Part shown: one piece after another, positions 16,825 to 41,678 of the stretch | Layout: the number at the start of each line of letters is the position of its first letter | How positions within the stretch are numbered: position 1 is the stretch's first letter | Position numbers and translations under genes: made by a program | Assembly: GCA_017470115.1 (NCBI GenBank) | Contig: JAFUEZ010000006.1 | Coordinates: 1 to 42,061 of the forward strand | Direction of reading: 5' to 3' | From: Bacilli bacterium | GTDB taxonomy: Bacteria; Bacillota_I; Bacilli_A; RFN20; CAG-826 | Length of the DNA: 42,061 nt | Notes under the pieces: model-generated | What the model saw: the letters and a program-made list of their open reading frames with translations, nothing else | The model's database searches: none | What the model was told of the DNA's origin: nothing

Positions 16825-17433
16825 TTAAATATTGATTGTTTGAGGACGTGGGTTGTATGCATATAAGCCAGCGACATAAAAAGGGCACTCTTCACATAAA
16901 GCACCTTCTGGACAAGTGCATAATTCGATCGCTTTTCTTCTGTTCTCACTTAAAAATAAATCATGTCCATCATATTTATCCAGTGTTGTATATCTACCAT
17001 CCTCATCAAGGATGACATATTCATTATCTAAAAGATAACCTCTTCTAATGTCATCAGCTGTTTCACCTATTGTTGTATCATCTACATGCACACCTATTAC
17101 ATGAGTCTCTAAAAGAGAATAATTAATAATATCCCCTTCCACTCTACAATTAGCAGGATATGTTTCTTGGCATTCACAATCATAGTCACCATTAAATACT
17201 ATTCTTAGTTGATCGCCCGCAACAATAGGTTTATCAATTTTAAGTTCACTAGAAAAAGAATAGTAACTATCATTAAATAGCAAAGTTGCTGTTCCATTGC
17301 TTTCATCAGTTTGATCACGCTCGAAAACAAAAGCAGCATCTAACAATAAAACTTTATTCTCATCATTGCTTGTATCAACACAACTCGAGAGTCCAAAAGA
17401 AAGAATTGCGATTAAAATTAATTTGCATTTCAT
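16825..17433 (-). CDS. Cys-rich lipoprotein, unknown function
   Basis: This 202-aa exported protein has a clear lipobox (signal MKCKLILIAILSFGLSSC, lipid Cys18). The mature part is acidic with two Cys clusters: YDCECQETYPANC in the middle and CTCPEGALCEEC near the C-terminus. These suggest disulfides or metal binding outside the cell. I recognise no domain. An extended -10 (TGATATGAT, 17440-17448) ends 6 nt before the ATG and no Shine-Dalgarno is present, so the mRNA may be leaderless. It lies between the beta-helix lipoprotein and the PII/DUF1538 operon, on the same strand as both. Confidence 0.65.
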   Translation of the reverse strand: MKCKLILIAILSFGLSSCVDTSNDENKVLLLDAAFVFERDQTDESNGTATLLFNDSYYSFSSELKIDKPIVAGDQLRIVFNGDYDCECQETYPANCRVEGDIINYSLLETHVIGVHVDDTTIGETADDIRRGYLLDNEYVILDEDGRYTTLDKYDGHDLFLSENRRKAIELCTCPEGALCEECPFYVAGLYAYNPRPQTINI

Positions 17434-17594: not shown

Positions 17595-17909
17595 TTAAAT
17601 TTTAATTCCAACAACATCGTTAACAGGAAGGGCAAAAGCAATGCCTTGTCCATCTGTCCCTAAACCAGCAGCTTTATAAATTGCCGCAAGCATTTGGTCT
17701 CTGATGCTTTCTTTTACTAGAATCAAAATCATTTCTTTATCAGGTGTGATAATTATGTTATATCTTTTTTCCATGTCTTTTGTACCAGTTCCTCTAGCAC
17801 GAATGATTGTACCGCCTCTAGCACCTGTTTCTCTTGCAACATCCATGACCGCATCAGAAAAACCAGTATTAACTAATACAACAATTAATTCAAATTTAAC
17901 TTCATCCAT
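17595..17909 (-). CDS. PII-like signal protein, second paralogue
   Basis: This 104-aa protein has the ferredoxin-like PII fold: FELIVVLVNTGFSDAVMDVARETGARGGTIIRARGTG, then KRYNIIITPDKEMILILV and a C-terminal GLGTDGQGIAFALPV. The ARETGARGGT(I/V)xxARGTG block is typical of PII homologues encoded beside DUF1538 proteins. The T-loop is short and lacks the Tyr51 uridylylation context of GlnB. It probably senses a nucleotide or metabolite and acts on the neighbouring membrane protein, but this is inference. AGGAGG precedes the ATG. It follows the other paralogue after 12 nt. Confidence 0.8.
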   Translation of the reverse strand: MDEVKFELIVVLVNTGFSDAVMDVARETGARGGTIIRARGTGTKDMEKRYNIIITPDKEMILILVKESIRDQMLAAIYKAAGLGTDGQGIAFALPVNDVVGIKI

Positions 17910-17921
17910 TGTTTGTGCCTC

Positions 17922-18317
17922 CTATAATGTGTCAATGAGGAATTGATAGAATTTCATTCCAATTAAACTAGTCATTGGGATAGAAAAACCAATACCACGA
18001 TTTCTTTTGCTAACTTTAAAAAATGCTTCGAGCTCTCTTTTAGCACTATCGATTTTATCTTGGCTAATGAGCGAAATAATAATTTCCTTAGAGTTGTCTT
18101 CAATACCTAAAATATCTCTAATTTCTTTTTGCGCTGTTCCTTCACCATATTGAACAAATTGTGCATTTGCTCCTTCGCTTTCAAAAAGTTTTAAAACAAA
18201 ATTACCTTGTCCTCTGTTAACAATGGTAATGAACATAAAAAGTTTTTTAATATCAGTTTTACTAACATTACTTTTAAATTCTGTATTCTCTTTTTTCGCT
18301 TTCTTAAATAGACCCAT
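17922..18317 (-). CDS. PII-like signal protein, first paralogue
   Basis: This 131-aa protein has a basic N-terminal extension (GLFKKAKKENTEFKSNVSKT) and then a PII-like core. KKLFMFITIVNRGQGNFVLKLFESEGA forms beta1-alpha1, YGEGTAQKEIRDILG the T-loop region, and GIGFSIPMTSLIG the final strand. It is more divergent than its neighbour: the ARGTG block is replaced by YGEGTA. Two unequal paralogues together suggest a heterotrimer or two separate inputs. GGAG lies ahead of the ATG, and DUF1538 is 8 nt upstream. Confidence 0.75.
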   Translation of the reverse strand: MGLFKKAKKENTEFKSNVSKTDIKKLFMFITIVNRGQGNFVLKLFESEGANAQFVQYGEGTAQKEIRDILGIEDNSKEIIISLISQDKIDSAKRELEAFFKVSKRNRGIGFSIPMTSLIGMKFYQFLIDTL

Positions 18318-18325
18318 ACTAACTC

Positions 18326-19915
18326 CTAATTAAAATGGATAATTTGCGCATCTTCTGCATTGTAAACGTGTTTTCGCATAGAGTATTGTGCTTTAATATC
18401 TTTAATTTTTTCAATAACACCCAAGACTTGAATGGCGATGATTGGAGTCAAAGCAATTAAAGCGATTACACCAAAAGATTGTTCAAAATAATTAGCATTT
18501 TCTGCATAAATAGCCGTTGTTAATCCAACAATCATCGGCAAGACAAAAGATGATGCCATTGGTCCACTAGCGGTGCCACCAGAGTCAAACGCCATAGCGG
18601 TAAAAATATCCGGACACAAAAACATTAATGTTAAAGAAATGATGTATCCAGGGACCATATAGTATAGGATTGAAAAATTAAATATTGTTCTTATAACCGC
18701 CAATGCAATAGCCAACCCTACACCAATTGATAAAGTAAGTAAAACTGTTAATCTACGTACTCTACCATCGGAGACTTCTTCAATTTGAACAGTTAAAACA
18801 TGGACAGCTGGTTCACAAACAATAGTTACTAAACCTATTAATAAAGCGATAATAACAATTAATGCCTTAGATTTTAATCCTAGCATTGTGCCAACGTAAT
18901 AGCCAATTGGTGTCATGGCAGCACCAGTTCCACATAAGAAGATACTTAAGCCAATATAGGCAAATAAGAAGCCTATCAATAATTTAAAAATCTTATGCTT
19001 TGGCAGTTTGATAAAAATCACATTATAAATTAAGAAAATAATAAGTGTTGGAGCCATGGCAATAAGAACTTCAATAGATGTTCCTAAAGAAAAACTATCA
19101 CTAGTTATATATGGGAATAATGTATTAATAAACATCATAAAAATGTTTTCACTGCCTAATTCAGTATAAGAAGGAACAAAGTTAGGGGAAAGCGTCGATG
19201 AAAATATAATTAATAAAGTGACACTAATGATTGGACCAATTGAAGCCATTCCAACAAGACCAAAACTATTGTTTTTAGCATTTTTCCCACCTCTGACTGT
19301 TGCAACACCGGTACCTAACGACAAAATAAATGGAACAGTGGCAGATCCAGTCGTCACACCACCAGAATCAAAAATAAATGGTAAAAAGACACTTTTATCA
19401 TTCTTGTCTCTAACAGTTAGAACGACAAAAATAAGAATCATAAAGGTTAAGGCGTAGAAAAATAAGTACCAAAGTTTTAAAGATTTTTGAAAAATAATTC
19501 TTAATACGCCAATGACAACAAATAAGCCAACCCCAACTGCAATACCAATAGTTAATATGTATGCAAAAACCGTTGAATCTGTTACTTGTTTAGTGACAAT
19601 CATGATGCTTGGTTCGGCAACAGTAATTAAAGCTCCTAATGCAAATGAAAATGCAATAACAATAAATAAGTTCTTCTGCTTAGAAAGTGAAGAACCCATA
19701 TATTCGCCAACCTTGCTTAAAGAAGATGAGGCTCCAATAGAAAATGTTCCTAATCCAGTGATAAGAACAATCATTCCTATAAGAAGCAACCAATAATCTC
19801 CTCTTGCAAAATTTAAAGGCGCCACATTTGTCCAAGACAAAATTAAAATAATAAATATCATCGGAATGATACTTAATGAGGCGCTAATGAATGCTTGCAG
19901 ATATCTATTTTTCAT
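18326..19915 (-). CDS. DUF1538 membrane protein, tandem duplicated
   Basis: This 529-aa integral membrane protein has about 12-14 hydrophobic segments and consists of two homologous halves. The first half has TVAEPSIMIVTKQV and FDSGGVTTGSATVPFILSLGTGVA. The second repeats them as TIVCEPAVHVLTVQIEEV and FDSGGTASGPMASSFVLPMIVGLTTA. Duplicated halves with conserved EP and DSGG motifs inside membrane segments suggest an inverted-repeat transporter or channel. Family members are uncharacterised but co-occur with PII-like genes, as here. It is the first gene of a three-gene operon. AAAGGTAG precedes the ATG. The cargo is unknown. Confidence 0.82.
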   Translation of the reverse strand: MKNRYLQAFISASLSIIPMIFIILILSWTNVAPLNFARGDYWLLLIGMIVLITGLGTFSIGASSSLSKVGEYMGSSLSKQKNLFIVIAFSFALGALITVAEPSIMIVTKQVTDSTVFAYILTIGIAVGVGLFVVIGVLRIIFQKSLKLWYLFFYALTFMILIFVVLTVRDKNDKSVFLPFIFDSGGVTTGSATVPFILSLGTGVATVRGGKNAKNNSFGLVGMASIGPIISVTLLIIFSSTLSPNFVPSYTELGSENIFMMFINTLFPYITSDSFSLGTSIEVLIAMAPTLIIFLIYNVIFIKLPKHKIFKLLIGFLFAYIGLSIFLCGTGAAMTPIGYYVGTMLGLKSKALIVIIALLIGLVTIVCEPAVHVLTVQIEEVSDGRVRRLTVLLTLSIGVGLAIALAVIRTIFNFSILYYMVPGYIISLTLMFLCPDIFTAMAFDSGGTASGPMASSFVLPMIVGLTTAIYAENANYFEQSFGVIALIALTPIIAIQVLGVIEKIKDIKAQYSMRKHVYNAEDAQIIHFN

Positions 19916-20131: not shown

Positions 20132-21097
20132 TTATGAATTAAATTCACTTTCGACAATTCGCACATCATTTTTTTCAAGATAAAATGTTTTTTCGAACTC
20201 GTGATTACTATTAGTTTTATATCGCCACACTATTTTGTCTGCAATGCCAATGATGATATAGTTTCGTGAGTGTTCGCAAGCTTGAGGATTATAAACATCA
20301 ATAGAACACTTGTTCCCGCTAGAATCCTCAAAAAAGTACTTATTGATTAAACTTTCCTTCTCCAAACCTAGAAAAGAATACAAAATATCTCCTAGTTCAC
20401 CTTGCGGTTTTTTTCCATACACTTCTATGGTTTTGTTATTTTTATTAATTAAAAGAGCAACTTTAAGAATGAGATTTTCGCGCTTATAAATTAATGTTTT
20501 GTTGTCAAAAATCATAAGAACTTTGTTGTTTTTTGTTAAACCATCGATATTGGCGTTATCTCTATCATATACTCTAATATGACTCTTTTTGAAAAGACTA
20601 TATTTTTGTGAAAACAATACATAAATAACTTCATTATCAACAACAAAATCAGTTAATAAGCTTTCAATATCTTGTTCTTCACACAAGCAAAAATACTCTC
20701 CATTGATAAACACCTTTCCAGAAGAATCAAATCTAACTATAAAGTAATCATGAATGGTTAAACACAAGTCATCATCCATATTCTTTAAAGCGGGGTTTTT
20801 TCTAAGTTCTTCAGCAAAAGAACGGGTTGATAATTTTGCAACGATTTCACAAGAAATCTTTCTACACACTTGTTTTTTAACATCTATCTGAAGTTGTTTT
20901 AACAAAACATCATGAATGTTTTTCCAAAAATGAATGAAATTAACTTTTTCTTCTAAAATAATGGCTAGTAATTTTGCTTCAGAAATATAATTATCATTTT
21001 GATTGCCACGAACACATAGACCGACAGGATCAAATTTGCATAGTATTGAAGCAATTATTTTAATCGTTTGCTCTTTTGAAATATTCTTATAAACCAT
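20132..21097 (-). CDS. Orphan protein of unknown function between two related terminators
   Basis: I do not recognise this 321-aa soluble protein. Residues 1-45 (IIASILCKFDPVGLCVRGNQ, then NDNYISEAKLLAIIL) loosely recall the DP(I/V)G(L)...YxxEA pattern of small DUF1871-like domains. The rest is beta-rich with many Lys, Asn and Asp and has no clear catalytic motif. No Shine-Dalgarno precedes the ATG. An extended -10 (TGCTAAAAT, ending 9 nt before the ATG) suggests a leaderless or nearly leaderless mRNA. The tRNA-cluster terminator lies 28 bp upstream and a related terminator lies 128 bp downstream, so the gene looks like a self-contained insertion. Being an accessory or defence-type gene is only a guess. 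Confidence 0.5.
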   Translation of the reverse strand: MVYKNISKEQTIKIIASILCKFDPVGLCVRGNQNDNYISEAKLLAIILEEKVNFIHFWKNIHDVLLKQLQIDVKKQVCRKISCEIVAKLSTRSFAEELRKNPALKNMDDDLCLTIHDYFIVRFDSSGKVFINGEYFCLCEEQDIESLLTDFVVDNEVIYVLFSQKYSLFKKSHIRVYDRDNANIDGLTKNNKVLMIFDNKTLIYKRENLILKVALLINKNNKTIEVYGKKPQGELGDILYSFLGLEKESLINKYFFEDSSGNKCSIDVYNPQACEHSRNYIIIGIADKIVWRYKTNSNHEFEKTFYLEKNDVRIVESEFNS

Positions 21098-21170: not shown

Positions 21171-21247
21171 TGGTTGCGGGGGAAAGATTTGAACTTCCGA
21201 CCTCCGGGTTATGGGCCCGACGAGCTACCAGACTGCTCTACCCCGCG
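21171..21247 (-). tRNA. Initiator tRNA-fMet (CAT)
   Basis: This is a 77-nt tRNA. The 5' CGCGGGG and 3' CCCCGCA leave the first pair as a C-A mismatch, the bacterial initiator hallmark. The anticodon stem carries consecutive GGG / CCC pairs around CCCATAA. CCA is encoded. It is the last gene of the tRNA operon. Confidence 0.95.
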
Positions 21248-21267
21248 ATAGGACATGTTTATTAAGA

Positions 21268-21358
21268 TGGCGGAGAAAGAGGGATTCGAACCCTCGCTAG
21301 GCTTGCACCTACTATCGGTTTTCAAGACCGACCCCTTCAACCGCTTGGGTATTTCTCC
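21268..21358 (-). tRNA. tRNA-Ser (TGA)
   Basis: This is a 91-nt tRNA with a long variable arm, acceptor GGAGAAA / TTTCTCC, discriminator G, anticodon TGA in loop TCTTGAAAA, and encoded CCA. It reads UCN codons by wobble. Confidence 0.95.
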
Positions 21359-21360
21359 GT

Positions 21361-21436
21361 TGGTGGACTCTACAGGACTCGAACCTGTAACCGATCGGTT
21401 ATGGGCCGATAGCTCTAACCATTGCGCTAAGAGTCC
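21361..21436 (-). tRNA. CAT-anticodon tRNA, probable tRNA-Ile2 (lysidine-modified)
   Basis: This is a 76-nt tRNA with acceptor GGACTCT / AGAGTCC and loop CCCATAA. The body (GGAC...TTAGC, CATAACCG, CAGGTTCGAGTCCTG) resembles Bacillus tRNA-Ile(CAT), not elongator Met. It would need TilS to convert C34 to lysidine and then read AUA. Identity between Ile2 and Met is judged by eye. Confidence 0.75.
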
Positions 21437-21470
21437 TTAAGAATCGTATTTAACAAACATTTATAATAAG

Positions 21471-21547
21471 TGGTAGCAGCGAAGGGATTCGAACCCCCGA
21501 CATACCGGGTATGAGCCGATCGCTCTAACCAACTGAGCTACGCTGCC
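21471..21547 (-). tRNA. Elongator tRNA-Met (CAT)
   Basis: This is a 77-nt tRNA. The acceptor GGCAGCG / CGCTGCT has a terminal G-U, the anticodon loop is CTCATAC, and the T-arm is GGGGGTTCGAATCCC(T). The loop context TCATACCC matches Bacillus elongator Met. CCA is encoded. Confidence 0.85.
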
Positions 21548-21552
21548 ATAAT

Positions 21553-21626
21553 TGGTGGACCCTAGGAGAATCGAACTCCTAACTGAAGCTTGCAAAGCTA
21601 CCGTTATCCCATTTAACTAAGGGCCC
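21553..21626 (-). tRNA. tRNA-Ala (TGC)
   Basis: This is a 74-nt tRNA. The acceptor GGGCCCT / AGGGTCC contains the G3-U70 pair that marks alanine tRNAs. The anticodon is TGC in loop TTTGCAA, with one T-T mismatch in the anticodon stem. CCA is encoded. It is the first gene of the operon. Confidence 0.92.
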
Positions 21627-36242: not shown

Positions 36243-36271
36243 ATTATATTTTTAGTTATTCTTTTTCAAAA
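36243..36271 (-). promoter_or_regulatory. Promoter of glgCDA
   Basis: On the minus strand TTTTGA (36266-36271) and TATAAT (36243-36248) are 17 bp apart. The -35 lies inside the end of jetC, so the glycogen operon could also receive read-through from the jet operon. Confidence 0.4.
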
Positions 36272-39200
36272 AGTCTAACTGTACTTCTATTTTTATCTCT
36301 TAAAACAATGAGTGTTTCATCAACAAGTGGTGAAATATCTGGAATCTTATCATATGGAGCAGATAAGATGACTTGAAGTTTGAAATCGTTTAAGAGTTTT
36401 ACTGCTTGAGTCATTCTAGTTTTATCCATCTTTGAGAATGCTTCATCAAAGATGATAAGTCTAGTTGTATTGCCCATTTCGCCTTCATCATTTGTGTGAT
36501 AAAGTTGAGCAAATGAAGCTAAAACTGCAATGTAGAATGGTGTTTGAGTTTCACCACCAGATTTTTTCTTAATCATCTTTGAAAGACGTTGTTCATCGCC
36601 GGTTTCCTTATTATAAACGATGAGGTCAAATTCAAGATATGAACGATAATCTGTGAATTTTGCAACGTTTTCAAGAAGTAAGGCATTCTTTTCACCTTCT
36701 CCGACATCAACAATTTGTCTAAAGAGTTCTTCCATAACATCTTTGTATTTTTCAACAAATGCACTATCATCTTTTCCTGTTTCTAAGATGAGATCATCTT
36801 TTAACATATCGTAATATCTCTTATAAACAGTTGATGGTTTGACTGTAAATCTATATAAATCCTTACCGAATGCAGATTGACGAAGAGCAACATTTAAATT
36901 ATCAATTTGATCTTCAACATCTTCAATTGCTCCACGTAATTTGAAGATGAAATCATCTTTAAATTGCTTAGTTGCTTTGTTATAAGAATCTTGGATTTTT
37001 TCTCTATATTCAGGGAGTTTAACATCTCTAAATTCTACAAGTTCATCATCGAAAGCCTTATTATCATCTGCTTCTGCATCATAACTAAGGTGATAATCTT
37101 GTAAATAATCCCTTCTTAATTTAATAACTTGGTTTCTGATGTTATTAACAAGATAAGTCAAACGAGCATATTCAACGTTTGTATCTTGATAAATTTCAAA
37201 GACTGTTTTTCCTTCAGCAAGTTTTGCTTGATATGCAGGAAGAGCAATTTCATCAACTAAAAATGGATCATAACTTGAATTAATTGAATCTTCTTTTTCT
37301 TTTATAGCTTGTTGTTCAGCAATAATCTTTTCTGATTTAATTGTCTCGATATCAGCAGTTAAATTACCTTTTTCAAGAACAATTCTATCTCTAGATTCGT
37401 GAATATCCTTAATATCTTGCTCGATATCTCTGATTCTGTTGTCGATTGATTCGCTTAATGGTGTATCAGAACCTTGAAGTTCTTTATTTATGTAAGCTAA
37501 ATTTGCTTCATAACCAGCTAAATCAGCAACGTGAGCTAAAAGAACAAAATAGTTATCAATTTCTGATTTTGTGAAAACTTCAAGTGAGTTAGCTTCATCG
37601 ATTACAGCCTTAATTTTTCTAAAATAATTCAAATTTTCGCTATATTCACTGATTTGTTTGCTCTTTTCTTTAAGGAATCTTTCATTAATTCCTCTTCCAA
37701 TAAATGATTCGTGATATAAACGAGGATTGATTTTAGCAAGAGAATAATTACGATAGAGATCGCATTCTTTTGTGATTCCATTTCCTGATTCACGAGCTTC
37801 TTCAATATTTTTAGATTTATGTAATCTACCAATCAAGAAGTTTGTATAAGCTTTTGCTCCTTCATGATCTGTGATAATTTCTTCAGCAAGTGAGCCAGAT
37901 TCAGCAACAAATCCTCTTTCGATAATTTTTTCTTCATCAACAAGAGCTGTTCCATAGAATTTATATTCATCAAGTAATCTTCTTAAAATTTTATAGGTTG
38001 AAGCATAATATTTTGGAGCAACAAATAAGTTGAATTTTTGTCCTGAAAGGAAACCTTCAATCGCATTTGACCAACTCAAATCATCGATATCAACAAGATC
38101 TGCATAAATTGCGACTTCGATTTTGTGGCCAAATTGAATTTGAAGTTCTTGCTCAAGACGTGCTTTAACCATAACAAGTCTAGAGTCGTAAGCTTTTGAG
38201 CCGCTCTTCATCTCGTTTTCTTGCTCGCGAATACCCCTAATGCTCTTTTCAAGATTTTGAATTGTTCTAGCAAGGGAAACAGCAAGTGAAGAAATTTTAT
38301 TTTTATAAAGCATCAATGCATCTCTAAAATCATTTAAAGCACCTTTATCAAGTTCAATGATATTTGAAAGATAATTTTGCTTAAATGAAGCAGTAACTTG
38401 TTTTATATCTTTAGAAGCTTCTTTAATCTCTTCAATCTCTTCTGCTCTATCTTCACCTAAAATATCAATATTTAATTTTTCTAAATTTTGAATTAATGCA
38501 TCACCACAATTTGCAAAATTATTTGCATATCCATAAAGTGATGTTTTAACTGTTGAAATATTGTTTTGAATAGCTGAAATTTTATCTTTAACATCTTTTC
38601 TTTGACGTTTTAAATCTTCAGAAATTCTGACTGTATCATTGGATGCTTTGTCCATAATAAGTCTATTTTTTCTATCTTCGAGTTCAGATAAATTGTTTTG
38701 GAATTCTAAAAGTTCTTCATCAATTTCAGCAATTCTTTTTTTGTTACTTTCGATTTGCTTATTAAATTTTCTTAATTTATCGTAACTTTGCTCTAATTGG
38801 CATCTTTCTAAAATGTATTGAGCAATTGTTAAATTCTCTTTGTGTTTTTTATAAGTTGCATAAATATCATTGACTTCTTCAAGACGTTTTACACGTTTTT
38901 CAATATTTAAAGCTTCATTTTCGAGTCTCTTATATTGAAGAATATTATCTTGAAGAGCATCAAGTTCAATATTTGCTTGAGGATCACAAACATATTCTGT
39001 AATAAATGTAGCAATATCAGTAATTGGCGAGAATGAAGTTGCCTTCTTTAAAAGACTGAAATATTTATCTTTTAATCCACCAAATTTCTTCTTCATAAAA
39101 TCTTGATATTGACGATTACTATCGAAGAATTGGAATTGCAATGGATAATTTTCTTCACAATATTTTCCTAAAGTTTTAATATCCATTGGAACATTATTTA

Positions 39201-39621
39201 CTACAAATTCATTTTCAGGAATCTTATTATCGAGGAAGAAAAATTTATGTTCAATTGTTCCTTCGCTAAAGACGTCAAAAACAACACCCATTGTAAAATA
39301 TGAATTGTGTAAAGTATCAAAATATTCAAGAGCGACATAACTTGTAAATCTGCCATTTCTTAAATATTTAAAACCACCATCAACAGTATCACCAAGTTCG
39401 CCTCTTAAATAGCCAACTAGAGTACGTGATGATTTGTCCATAGCTGCTTTATTAAAATATTTTCCAGTTGTATCACCAAGTAAAACAAGTTGAATAGCAT
39501 CAATTAATGTTGATTTACCAGAACCATTAACACCAGTAAGGAAGACGATTGGTCTAATGTCGATTGTTTCGTTCCAAAAATAGTGCCAATTTATAATTTT
39601 AACTTTATTTAATTGCTTCAT
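36256..39621 (-). CDS. jetC: JetC-like SMC/MukB-type ATPase
   Basis: This 1121-aa protein is the motor of a Wadjet/Mks-type condensin. The N-terminus has INWHYFWNETIDIRPIVFLTG and the Walker A GVNGSGKST (30-38). Long coiled coils span about 230-430 and 740-930 around a central hinge-like region. The C-terminus has the ABC signature KKKSGGETQTPF (SGGE at 1021) and Walker B RLIIFDEAFSKMD. All ATPase motifs are intact, so it should be active. It shares one base with the jetB stop. JetC hydrolyses ATP to extrude DNA loops together with JetA and JetB. Here no jetD follows: glgC does. Confidence 0.92.
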   Translation of the reverse strand: MKQLNKVKIINWHYFWNETIDIRPIVFLTGVNGSGKSTLIDAIQLVLLGDTTGKYFNKAAMDKSSRTLVGYLRGELGDTVDGGFKYLRNGRFTSYVALEYFDTLHNSYFTMGVVFDVFSEGTIEHKFFFLDNKIPENEFVVNNVPMDIKTLGKYCEENYPLQFQFFDSNRQYQDFMKKKFGGLKDKYFSLLKKATSFSPITDIATFITEYVCDPQANIELDALQDNILQYKRLENEALNIEKRVKRLEEVNDIYATYKKHKENLTIAQYILERCQLEQSYDKLRKFNKQIESNKKRIAEIDEELLEFQNNLSELEDRKNRLIMDKASNDTVRISEDLKRQRKDVKDKISAIQNNISTVKTSLYGYANNFANCGDALIQNLEKLNIDILGEDRAEEIEEIKEASKDIKQVTASFKQNYLSNIIELDKGALNDFRDALMLYKNKISSLAVSLARTIQNLEKSIRGIREQENEMKSGSKAYDSRLVMVKARLEQELQIQFGHKIEVAIYADLVDIDDLSWSNAIEGFLSGQKFNLFVAPKYYASTYKILRRLLDEYKFYGTALVDEEKIIERGFVAESGSLAEEIITDHEGAKAYTNFLIGRLHKSKNIEEARESGNGITKECDLYRNYSLAKINPRLYHESFIGRGINERFLKEKSKQISEYSENLNYFRKIKAVIDEANSLEVFTKSEIDNYFVLLAHVADLAGYEANLAYINKELQGSDTPLSESIDNRIRDIEQDIKDIHESRDRIVLEKGNLTADIETIKSEKIIAEQQAIKEKEDSINSSYDPFLVDEIALPAYQAKLAEGKTVFEIYQDTNVEYARLTYLVNNIRNQVIKLRRDYLQDYHLSYDAEADDNKAFDDELVEFRDVKLPEYREKIQDSYNKATKQFKDDFIFKLRGAIEDVEDQIDNLNVALRQSAFGKDLYRFTVKPSTVYKRYYDMLKDDLILETGKDDSAFVEKYKDVMEELFRQIVDVGEGEKNALLLENVAKFTDYRSYLEFDLIVYNKETGDEQRLSKMIKKKSGGETQTPFYIAVLASFAQLYHTNDEGEMGNTTRLIIFDEAFSKMDKTRMTQAVKLLNDFKLQVILSAPYDKIPDISPLVDETLIVLRDKNRSTVRLFEKE

Positions 39622-40253
39622 TAAAATGCCTCCTCTCCTTGATTACGTGAGTTGAGTTCATCTAAAGCGTTGCTCATTGCAACAATCTTTTCATTATCAA
39701 GCGCGTAAACAATACTTGGAAGAATATAGAAAGAAACATTTCCTTCATCATAATTTCCACTAACTTTGGAAATAATATTGTGATTTGCTAAAAATCTTAA
39801 TGAGCGAGAAATTGATCTTCCGTTTAATCTTTTTCCTGGCATAGTAATTCCATCATCAATCATCGTCTTAAGTAGACCTGGAGTGGTCAAATAGATGGCT
39901 TGATTAGTGGAATTTGATTCATTTTTATAATTTTCAAAAATTAATCTTAAAGCAAAAAGAATCAAAGATGTTTCTCTATCCATTCTGATTCTATTTTCAC
40001 CATAAAGATTTGTTAATGCGACAACTCCTAAAACTACATCTTTTTCAACGTTCCAACCAGCATATTTGAGATAATCATTAACAATCTCAAAATATCTTTC
40101 TAAAAATCTATAATCAGGATTTATACGAATAACTTTTTCTCTTGTGTCAAAAATATCACGAACAATAAATCCTTTTAAAAGTAATTTGTTGACTACAGTA
40201 GAAAACTCATTTTGATCACTGCTTGGCATCTTTAAATAATCTTCAGTAAACAT
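39621..40253 (-). CDS. jetB: JetB-like (MukE-like, DUF4194) subunit
   Basis: This 210-aa protein is probably two winged-helix domains, the MukE-type KITE subunit of the complex. FSTVVNKLLLKGFIVRDIFDTREKVIRINPDYRFLERYFEIVNDYL and the GENRIRMDRETSLILFALRLIFENY block (about 84-110) are characteristic of DUF4194. It bridges the JetA kleisin to DNA. It lies 6 bp after jetA and overlaps jetC by one base. The call rests on motif plus gene order. Confidence 0.87.
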   Translation of the reverse strand: MFTEDYLKMPSSDQNEFSTVVNKLLLKGFIVRDIFDTREKVIRINPDYRFLERYFEIVNDYLKYAGWNVEKDVVLGVVALTNLYGENRIRMDRETSLILFALRLIFENYKNESNSTNQAIYLTTPGLLKTMIDDGITMPGKRLNGRSISRSLRFLANHNIISKVSGNYDEGNVSFYILPSIVYALDNEKIVAMSNALDELNSRNQGEEAF

Positions 40254-40259
40254 ATTTTT

Positions 40260-41678
40260 CTACTCCTTTCTTATAAATTTGAAATTTGGAACGATGTATC
40301 CATATGAATGGATCTTTGTTTTATCAACTTCTTCTACCCAATAGAAGCAATTTTCATCATCTTTCTTAATAACTGCTAAGATTAAACAGATAAATGCATC
40401 GGTATCAACTATTGGAATTTCTGAAATGTTGATTTCTTGTTTATCTCCAAATGCAAGTTCCATAAATCCATAAACTTTTTCATCTGTGAAGATAAGTCTT
40501 GTTTCTTCAATGAAATCACTCATCAAGAAGTCGGCTGCATCATCAAATGAAACGAGTTCCATTGGCAAGTCATCTTCTCTTATCTTTCTTAAAATTGGAA
40601 GAGTCAATGAGTCACCATTAATATAACCTTGCTCGTAGAAGTAAATACTATCTTGCATCTTGGTCAAAATTTTTCTTAATCTACGAGGATCATTTGTACT
40701 CTTTGCATATTCTTTAAGAATATTTTCTAAGTGACCCTTAATAGTTTTATCGTTGTTATTAAGGTATAAAATCTTGTTAGCACTACTTTTGGTGTAAGCG
40801 TTATTTTCTTTATCGATACTTGAAATGGTTGCGTTAAGTTTTTCATAAGTATCAGTAATGTAATTGATTTTTTCAATAACATCAGCTTCCATTGCCTCAC
40901 GAGTTTCTGTAGGATTCGAAAGAACTGCTTGTTTTGTTATTTTTTCTCTTAAATTTCTATCGTTAATCCACTTATCTAAAATTCTAATGATTGGTCGTTT
41001 AAATTTAGCAACGCTATCAAAAGTTTTGAGTGGATGGTAATATCTATCAACAATTTTGTTTTTATAAATATCAAAATAATCATGTAAAACACGATTAGTA
41101 TCGAATAATTTGGATAATCTATTTTGGAAGATTCTAATAGAATGGTTGATTGTAATAAGTTCAACTTTTAATCTCTTTGTGTTGTCATAGCATCTTGAAA
41201 GTGTGGCATACATCAATTCATCTTGTTCCTCATCTTCAAGTTTAAGTTCACTATAAGTTGCATGAACAAGTGCCATATATGGACTTTCTTCATCACTAAT
41301 TATGTCTTTAAAAGCTTTCAAAATTAAAATTGAATATTGTGGCATGATGATGCTTTCTTCAAAAGTATCAGGATCCATCATGACATCAATCCAACCAGTT
41401 TCTTCTAAACGTTTAACAATGTAACCTGCTTTACCACTTGCAGTTTCAGCTAAAAGCGAATTATCTTGAGTTGCATCAAATTCTTCATCTTCGTATGTGA
41501 AAGATTCAAGTTCTTTTCCTCTTTCTCTTAAAGTCTTAACAAAATCGCTTTTTTTGATAAAAGCTTCATCAGATTCAAGCAAGTTATAGAGAACCATCAA
41601 ACTATCTAGGTAGATTGCTTTGTTCTTCCCACCAAATAATCCAAAGTAATTTTCAGGTATAATATCAAATAAGTTCAT
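40260..41678 (-). CDS. jetA: JetA-like kleisin subunit (DUF5716 type)
   Basis: This 472-aa protein starts MNLFDIIPENYFGLFGGKNKAIYLDSLMVLY, the N-terminus I associate with DUF5716 JetA proteins of Clostridia and relatives. It has an N-terminal winged-helix region, a long helical middle (about 150-330) and a C-terminal winged helix, the layout of MukF/kleisin. It would hold the JetC head pair and bind JetB. It is the first gene of the operon. AAGG lies 4 nt before ATG inside the arm of a perfect inverted repeat. A TGATATAAT extended -10 ends 11 nt before the ATG, so the leader may be only about 5 nt. Confidence 0.87.
   Translation of the reverse strand: MNLFDIIPENYFGLFGGKNKAIYLDSLMVLYNLLESDEAFIKKSDFVKTLRERGKELESFTYEDEEFDATQDNSLLAETASGKAGYIVKRLEETGWIDVMMDPDTFEESIIMPQYSILILKAFKDIISDEESPYMALVHATYSELKLEDEEQDELMYATLSRCYDNTKRLKVELITINHSIRIFQNRLSKLFDTNRVLHDYFDIYKNKIVDRYYHPLKTFDSVAKFKRPIIRILDKWINDRNLREKITKQAVLSNPTETREAMEADVIEKINYITDTYEKLNATISSIDKENNAYTKSSANKILYLNNNDKTIKGHLENILKEYAKSTNDPRRLRKILTKMQDSIYFYEQGYINGDSLTLPILRKIREDDLPMELVSFDDAADFLMSDFIEETRLIFTDEKVYGFMELAFGDKQEINISEIPIVDTDAFICLILAVIKKDDENCFYWVEEVDKTKIHSYGYIVPNFKFIRKE

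Follow-up and report, generated by a model that had tools for sequence, protein, structure and literature searches.

The operon described here, a widespread one carried by a gut bacterium, encodes a membrane protein with two DUF1538 domains together with two unequal proteins of the PII type, and on balance we favour the reading that it specifies an UmpAB-like (DUF1538) antiporter of monovalent cations and H+ and, as a control module dedicated to it, the two PIIs, in the manner of AmtB-GlnK or SbtA-SbtB. PII proteins are well known as sensors of nitrogen and carbon, and this operon is a sign of a large branch of them, apparently undescribed, that is linked to cation/H+ exchange and occurs in bacteria which may lack any nitrogen circuit. 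The window, that is, the whole stretch of DNA that was analysed, is an entire contig of 42,061 bases from a 1.41-Mb genome that is 96% complete. The features of the operon within it are as follows.

18326..19915, minus strand: DUF1538 x2 membrane protein of 529 aa (PF07556 twice), with two predicted inverted 7-TM repeats
18326..18412, minus strand: cytoplasmic end of the last helix of the DUF1538 protein and its C-terminal tail DAQIIHF(N), a candidate PII docking site
17922..18317, minus strand: PII-A, 131 aa, a diverged PII paralogue with a basic N-terminal extension and YGEGTA at the base of the T-loop
17595..17909, minus strand: PII-B, 104 aa, a member of the PII family (PF00543) with a shortened T-loop and an altered B-loop

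An earlier note on this DNA had described a three-gene operon at 17595-19915, and this is borne out: the three ORFs are adjacent on the minus strand, the coordinates were right, the intergenic gaps from DUF1538 to PII-A and from PII-A to PII-B are 8 and 12 nt, and Shine-Dalgarno-like sequences stand ahead of the starts of both PII-A and PII-B. A scan for promoters and terminators gave 20 against 13.9 (sd 3.4) in shuffled sequences for the former and 1 against 1.7 for the latter, which is not convincingly higher. The operon is flanked by ORFs of 202 aa (16825-17433) and 321 aa (20132-21097), both on the minus strand and without a Pfam match. The 202-aa ORF has a lipoprotein-like N terminus; the 321-aa ORF precedes the operon and has a cluster of five tRNA genes upstream of it (21174-21626, minus strand).

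The same gene order is conserved in distant bacteria, which excludes a chance origin of the three-gene arrangement. DUF1538 is present in 51 of 59 genomes of the nearest relatives, and two PII domains lie downstream of it in all 21 distinct loci examined from this group. At the 80 named loci, chosen as the 80 best among 571 confirmed stretches, a PII-type ORF follows DUF1538 directly and on the same strand in every case, and 79 of these 80 best loci carry two PII domains (in separate genes at 74 loci, fused at 5); at the remaining one, L060, the contig ends before a second PII domain. Of 245 sampled genomes, all at least 90% complete, 46 have DUF1538, and a PII match was adjacent in 45 of these, as counted by eye from coordinates; the sole non-adjacent genome, G224, contains a 105-aa DUF1538 remnant and no PII. 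Co-occurrence across genomes, on which the earlier note had made its proposal depend, is near-universal where DUF1538 occurs, both at the named loci and in the sampled genomes. Plasmids of Paraclostridium and Peptoclostridium (Peptostreptococcales) carry DUF1538x2 with tandem PII. Proteobacterial plasmids, represented by three records from two genera of which two loci were examined, carry umpA-umpB with a single B-type PII; those of Methylocystis and Chelativorans each have two split DUF1538 genes and one PII, and the first DUF1538 gene of the latter is short.

RefSeq-type annotation already displays DUF1538 and PII genes as neighbours, and PII-controlled transport is likewise known. The DUF1538-PII linkage as such, the two paralogues and the fusions are apparently undescribed, no description of them having been found in a literature search that had most subscription journals and all preprints beyond its reach. 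At locus L138 (G064:C31), DUF1538 is followed by three consecutive PII genes in the order B, A, B, and contig C6 of the same genome carries another DUF1538-PII operon. Four unannotated faecal contigs entered as 'Bacteriophage sp.' (MT835548, MT837261, MT839021 and MT835770) also encode DUF1538 and are possibly bacterial DNA filed as phage.

The history of the pair was followed in a tree of 97 PII domains and GlnK, drawn from 49 loci that were hand-picked for spread. All 47 first-position PIIs, a number that includes the middle PII of the three-PII locus, fall in one clade, and the second-position PIIs and proteobacterial singles all lie outside it. The node joining the 47 has a support of 0.23, and of 0.96 when L137 and L141 are left out (45 sequences). 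Judged from this tree, PII-A and PII-B stem from one old duplication. About six changes between the tandem and the separate state map to the PII-A clade, and the repeated fusion in the same A-B order suggests that PII-A and PII-B work side by side; the two probably act together, and the repeated fusions are in line with the idea of a mixed PII-A/PII-B complex.

PII-B is a member of PF00543 (37.6 bits, cut-off 25). PII-A gave no match to PF00543, and the profiles of the two proteins align with one another (98.7%, E 2.5e-16, 106 columns). The description of the pair as two unequal PII paralogues is therefore upheld, by family membership for PII-B and by profile comparison for PII-A. Two further statements about PII-A need to be qualified. 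The ARGTG block, which PII-A had been said to lack, is not simply missing, as the aligned site reads YGEGTA and the conserved PII-A form is GxGTA. The basic N-terminal extension is real in the window and is not general, since 27 of 105 PII-A ORFs from non-fused layouts have fewer than 12 residues there.

Compared with E. coli GlnK, PII-B has a T-loop that is 6 residues shorter, with no aligned Tyr, GQGI in the place of the B-loop GDGK, and VGI in the place of the C-terminal RIR. We take the T-loop Tyr, the GDGK of the B-loop and the C-terminal RIR to be features of the classical GlnB/GlnK motif, and from its sequence PII-B is not a classical GlnB/GlnK. Both the phosphate-site Lys/Arg and the GlnK T-loop Tyr are missing from PII-B, which makes different ligands plausible for these PIIs. 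The lysine at the end of the T-loop is conserved in both paralogues, at 90% or more in PII-A (K77) and without variation in PII-B (K58). The best solved relatives of the PII-B profile are P-II proteins (best E 7.9e-8). Matches of the PII-A profile were weak only, to YaaQ/PstA-type and P-II (5d4l) entries at E 0.15-1.1, and PF06153 (PstA/DarA) matches neither PII. The loss of the classical ATP/2-oxoglutarate residues from PII-B would suit PIIs that serve as constitutive assembly or structural subunits with no sensing role; we regard this as very unlikely, because the conserved T-loop-end lysine, like the Gly positions conserved around the B-loop, suggests that a site has been retained.

The 529-aa protein is matched twice by PF07556 (197.8 and 175 bits, cut-off 22.6), and its halves, which had been called homologous on account of repeated EP and DSGG motifs, are confirmed as such by hhalign (99.9%, E 1.4e-31). 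AEP/CEP occurs in both halves (E101-P102 and E368-P369), as does DSGG (from D183 and D444), and both motifs are near-invariant. Counts of Lys and Arg in the loops of 41 relatives alternate in a way that places half 1 N-in/C-out and half 2 N-out/C-in, the least charged loops being ambiguous; this alternation indicates inverted 7-TM repeats, with both ends of the protein cytoplasmic. An AlphaFold2 model of the protein is confident (pLDDT 91.7, pTM 0.91), and in it the invariant E101 and E368 are at helix breaks and D183 and D444 are near the DSGG breaks. Foldseek searches with the full model and with repeat 2 alone returned no match at E 0.001 or better, and no sequence match of DUF1538 to solved structures was found. 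Comparison of the model with the CLC and NCX folds gave at best Z 5.7 (rmsd 5.0, 142 aligned) and Z 4.3 (rmsd 5.2, 174 aligned), respectively, which is below the level that the tool states to be meaningful; with Z so low, a relationship to the CLC, NCX or MgtE folds is not claimed. The lack of a clear structural match does not prove that the DUF1538 fold is new. A 1596-aa ORF in locus L099, considered as a possible DUF1538 fusion, was judged to be a non-coding extension into upstream sequence.

That the cargo of DUF1538 is unknown, as had been stated, is too strong. The DUF1538 pair UmpAB of Halomonas zhaodongensis has been shown to be a heterodimeric Na+(Li+,K+)/H+ antiporter (PMC5484666). 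Its antiport activity was measured in E. coli vesicles; no PII is among the ORFs described for the clone used (PMC5484666), and the main text of the paper does not mention PII. The composition of the clone suggests that PII is likely regulatory and not catalytic; activity without a cloned PII is, however, no proof of a regulatory role, since E. coli has PII proteins of its own, such as GlnK. UmpAB and the window protein belong to the same Pfam family and have two homologous halves, which in UmpAB are needed together; in both, the second half ends in a hydrophilic C terminus, to which the UmpAB authors attached importance (PMC5484666). In UmpAB, however, the halves are on separate chains, whereas in the window protein they are fused into one. 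The window protein scores far below the cut-off of the NCBIfam equivalogs for UmpA and UmpB (NF041627 and NF041628; 129.6 of 490 and 132.7 of 500), and by sequence comparison it is a relative of UmpA/UmpB and not the same equivalog. It is probably a monovalent cation/H+ antiporter related to UmpAB.

The low similarity to UmpAB, together with the lack of a clear fold match and of an ion-specific riboswitch upstream of DUF1538 in the window and at 45 loci, could also mean that the transporter is gated by PII but in this case carries a substrate other than Na+, Li+ or K+. We consider this unlikely, because the invariant Glu/Asp at or beside the helix breaks of both repeats fit a cation/H+ exchanger and the sole characterised member of the family that was found is a cation antiporter. 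The use of a riboswitch as a clue to the cargo was dropped, as an Rfam scan of the window and 45 loci (44 of the 80 named loci and the plasmid locus L129) detected no cis-regulatory RNA ahead of DUF1538; the matches obtained were tRNAs, two T-boxes, glycine and purine riboswitches and Gut-1, all of them distant or on the opposite strand.

If the operon specifies a PII-controlled cation antiporter, both half-transporters would be carried in one chain as inverted repeats and would exchange Na+ or K+ for H+. PII-A and PII-B would form one complex on the cytoplasmic face of DUF1538, probably in contact with its conserved C-terminal tail, and this complex would slow or block cation/H+ exchange depending on the small molecule that it has bound, with an adenine nucleotide or c-di-AMP as a likelier ligand than 2-oxoglutarate. 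Restraint of the antiporter would last until the small ligand changes. Direct gating of DUF1538 by the PIIs is inferred. Concrete tests are possible of the signal to which the two PIIs respond, of a mixed complex between them and of the way in which the DUF1538 antiporter is gated.

The C terminus of DUF1538 consists of a variable stretch and then a conserved acidic-hydrophobic motif, DAQIIHF in the window, in which I525, I526 and F528 are conserved at 90% or more (41 aligned rows). The tail pattern was present in 105 of 126 loci, which differ from one another within the 200 C-terminal residues of DUF1538, mix nested samples and include the window operon. By layout, it occurred in 99 of 105 loci with separate PIIs, in 5 of 17 with fused PIIs, in 1 of 3 where a single PII was seen, and not in the one locus without PII (0/1). 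Since it lies on the cytoplasmic side, the conserved tail is a natural candidate for the PII docking site. A pairing of the basic extension of PII-A with the acidic tail was rejected as a general rule, because many PII-A proteins have no extension and the tail pattern is kept in their DUF1538. Only tentatively, and with more doubt than confidence, do we suggest a widespread control unit of monovalent-cation homeostasis in gut Bacillota, in which PII-A and PII-B form a hetero-complex that binds the conserved D-x-Q-I-I-x-F tail of an antiporter with a new inverted-repeat structure and, in response to a nucleotide second messenger, possibly c-di-AMP, gates this antiporter. If so, this would be, to our knowledge, the first Na+/K+-H+ antiporter under the control of PII and also the first PII system to require two paralogues.

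PII pairs are also found without DUF1538. In one genus DUF1538 is missing from all four genomes and the PII-B gene is kept in all four; a weaker second PII match adjoins PII-B in each, and in three it was confirmed as PII-A. These orphan PIIs adjoin an RluA-type gene, which in relatives lies upstream of DUF1538, so the DUF1538 gene that once separated RluA from PII-A was apparently lost. A further genome of the 245-genome sample, G233, has PIIs and no DUF1538. For the closest orphan pair, dN/dS was 0.039 for PII-A and 0.005 for PII-B; this purifying selection argues for some role that does not need DUF1538, and gating a DUF1538 transporter is not the sole possible role of these PIIs. Selection on PII pairs where DUF1538 has apparently been lost would fit a signal that runs in the reverse direction, in which DUF1538, as a platform in the membrane or a sensor of ions, would bind the PII pair and set it free to act on another cytoplasmic target, and the sequestration of GlnK by AmtB in other bacteria counts for this as well. 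We think a reverse signal rather unlikely, given that the PIIs remain beside DUF1538 in 45 of 46 genomes and that no conserved second partner was seen, the orphan pairs either adjoining RluA or lying past a GNAT-like gene. At the orphan loci L133, L134, L135 and L136 (G076, G233, G245 and G247), whose genomes give no DUF1538 match, PII-A/PII-B lie close to a gene for a pseudouridine synthase of the RluA type. At L137 (G160:C11), a second PII pair lies away from DUF1538; next come genes for an ABC ATPase and for a membrane protein of 259 aa that looks like an exporter of the FetAB type, and in these exporter-like proteins this PII branch may have a further transporter partner.

Returning to the operon as a PII-controlled antiporter, three known systems can be compared with it. 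As in GlnK-AmtB, a PII-type gene stands beside the gene for a membrane transporter; the transporter, however, is a different one, there are two PIIs here in place of one, the host is without Amt, and the T-loop Tyr and B-loop Lys of GlnK are lacking in PII-B. SbtB is a non-canonical PII dedicated to a cation-coupled transporter (SbtA, for bicarbonate), and the window operon would likewise tie a non-canonical PII to a cation-coupled transporter. It differs in the transporter family and in having two PII paralogues, and SbtB matches the PII-B profile at E 0.28-0.3 only. PstA/DarA shares the PII-like fold; PF06153, however, is without a match in the host genome, and PII-A resembles PstA at E 0.15-0.22 only.

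Amt (PF00909) was not found in the host genome (0/1, with the control giving a match in 14/14), the assembly of which is 96% complete, and glutamine synthetase gave no match there either. A nitrogen role is therefore unlikely, and annotation of these PIIs as nitrogen regulators probably misleads. The host genome does encode a c-di-AMP synthase, and PstA (PF06153), a known c-di-AMP receptor, has no match in it. In the 245-genome sample the synthase was present in 46 of 46 DUF1538 genomes against 149 of 199 others, an association that is confounded by ancestry, as the synthase-less genomes displayed all belong to one family; PstA is also present in 15 of the 46 DUF1538 genomes. c-di-AMP has been described as a signal of potassium availability (PMC8822347). 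As the signal for the PII pair, it is a lead and not a result.

Elsewhere in the window, the minus strand at 36256-41678 carries Wadjet-like genes for JetA (PF18982), a DUF4194 protein that is probably JetB, and an SbcC/MukB-like ATPase that is probably JetC. Directly after these genes stand two nucleotidyltransferase genes that resemble GlgC/GlgD and not a recognisable JetD.
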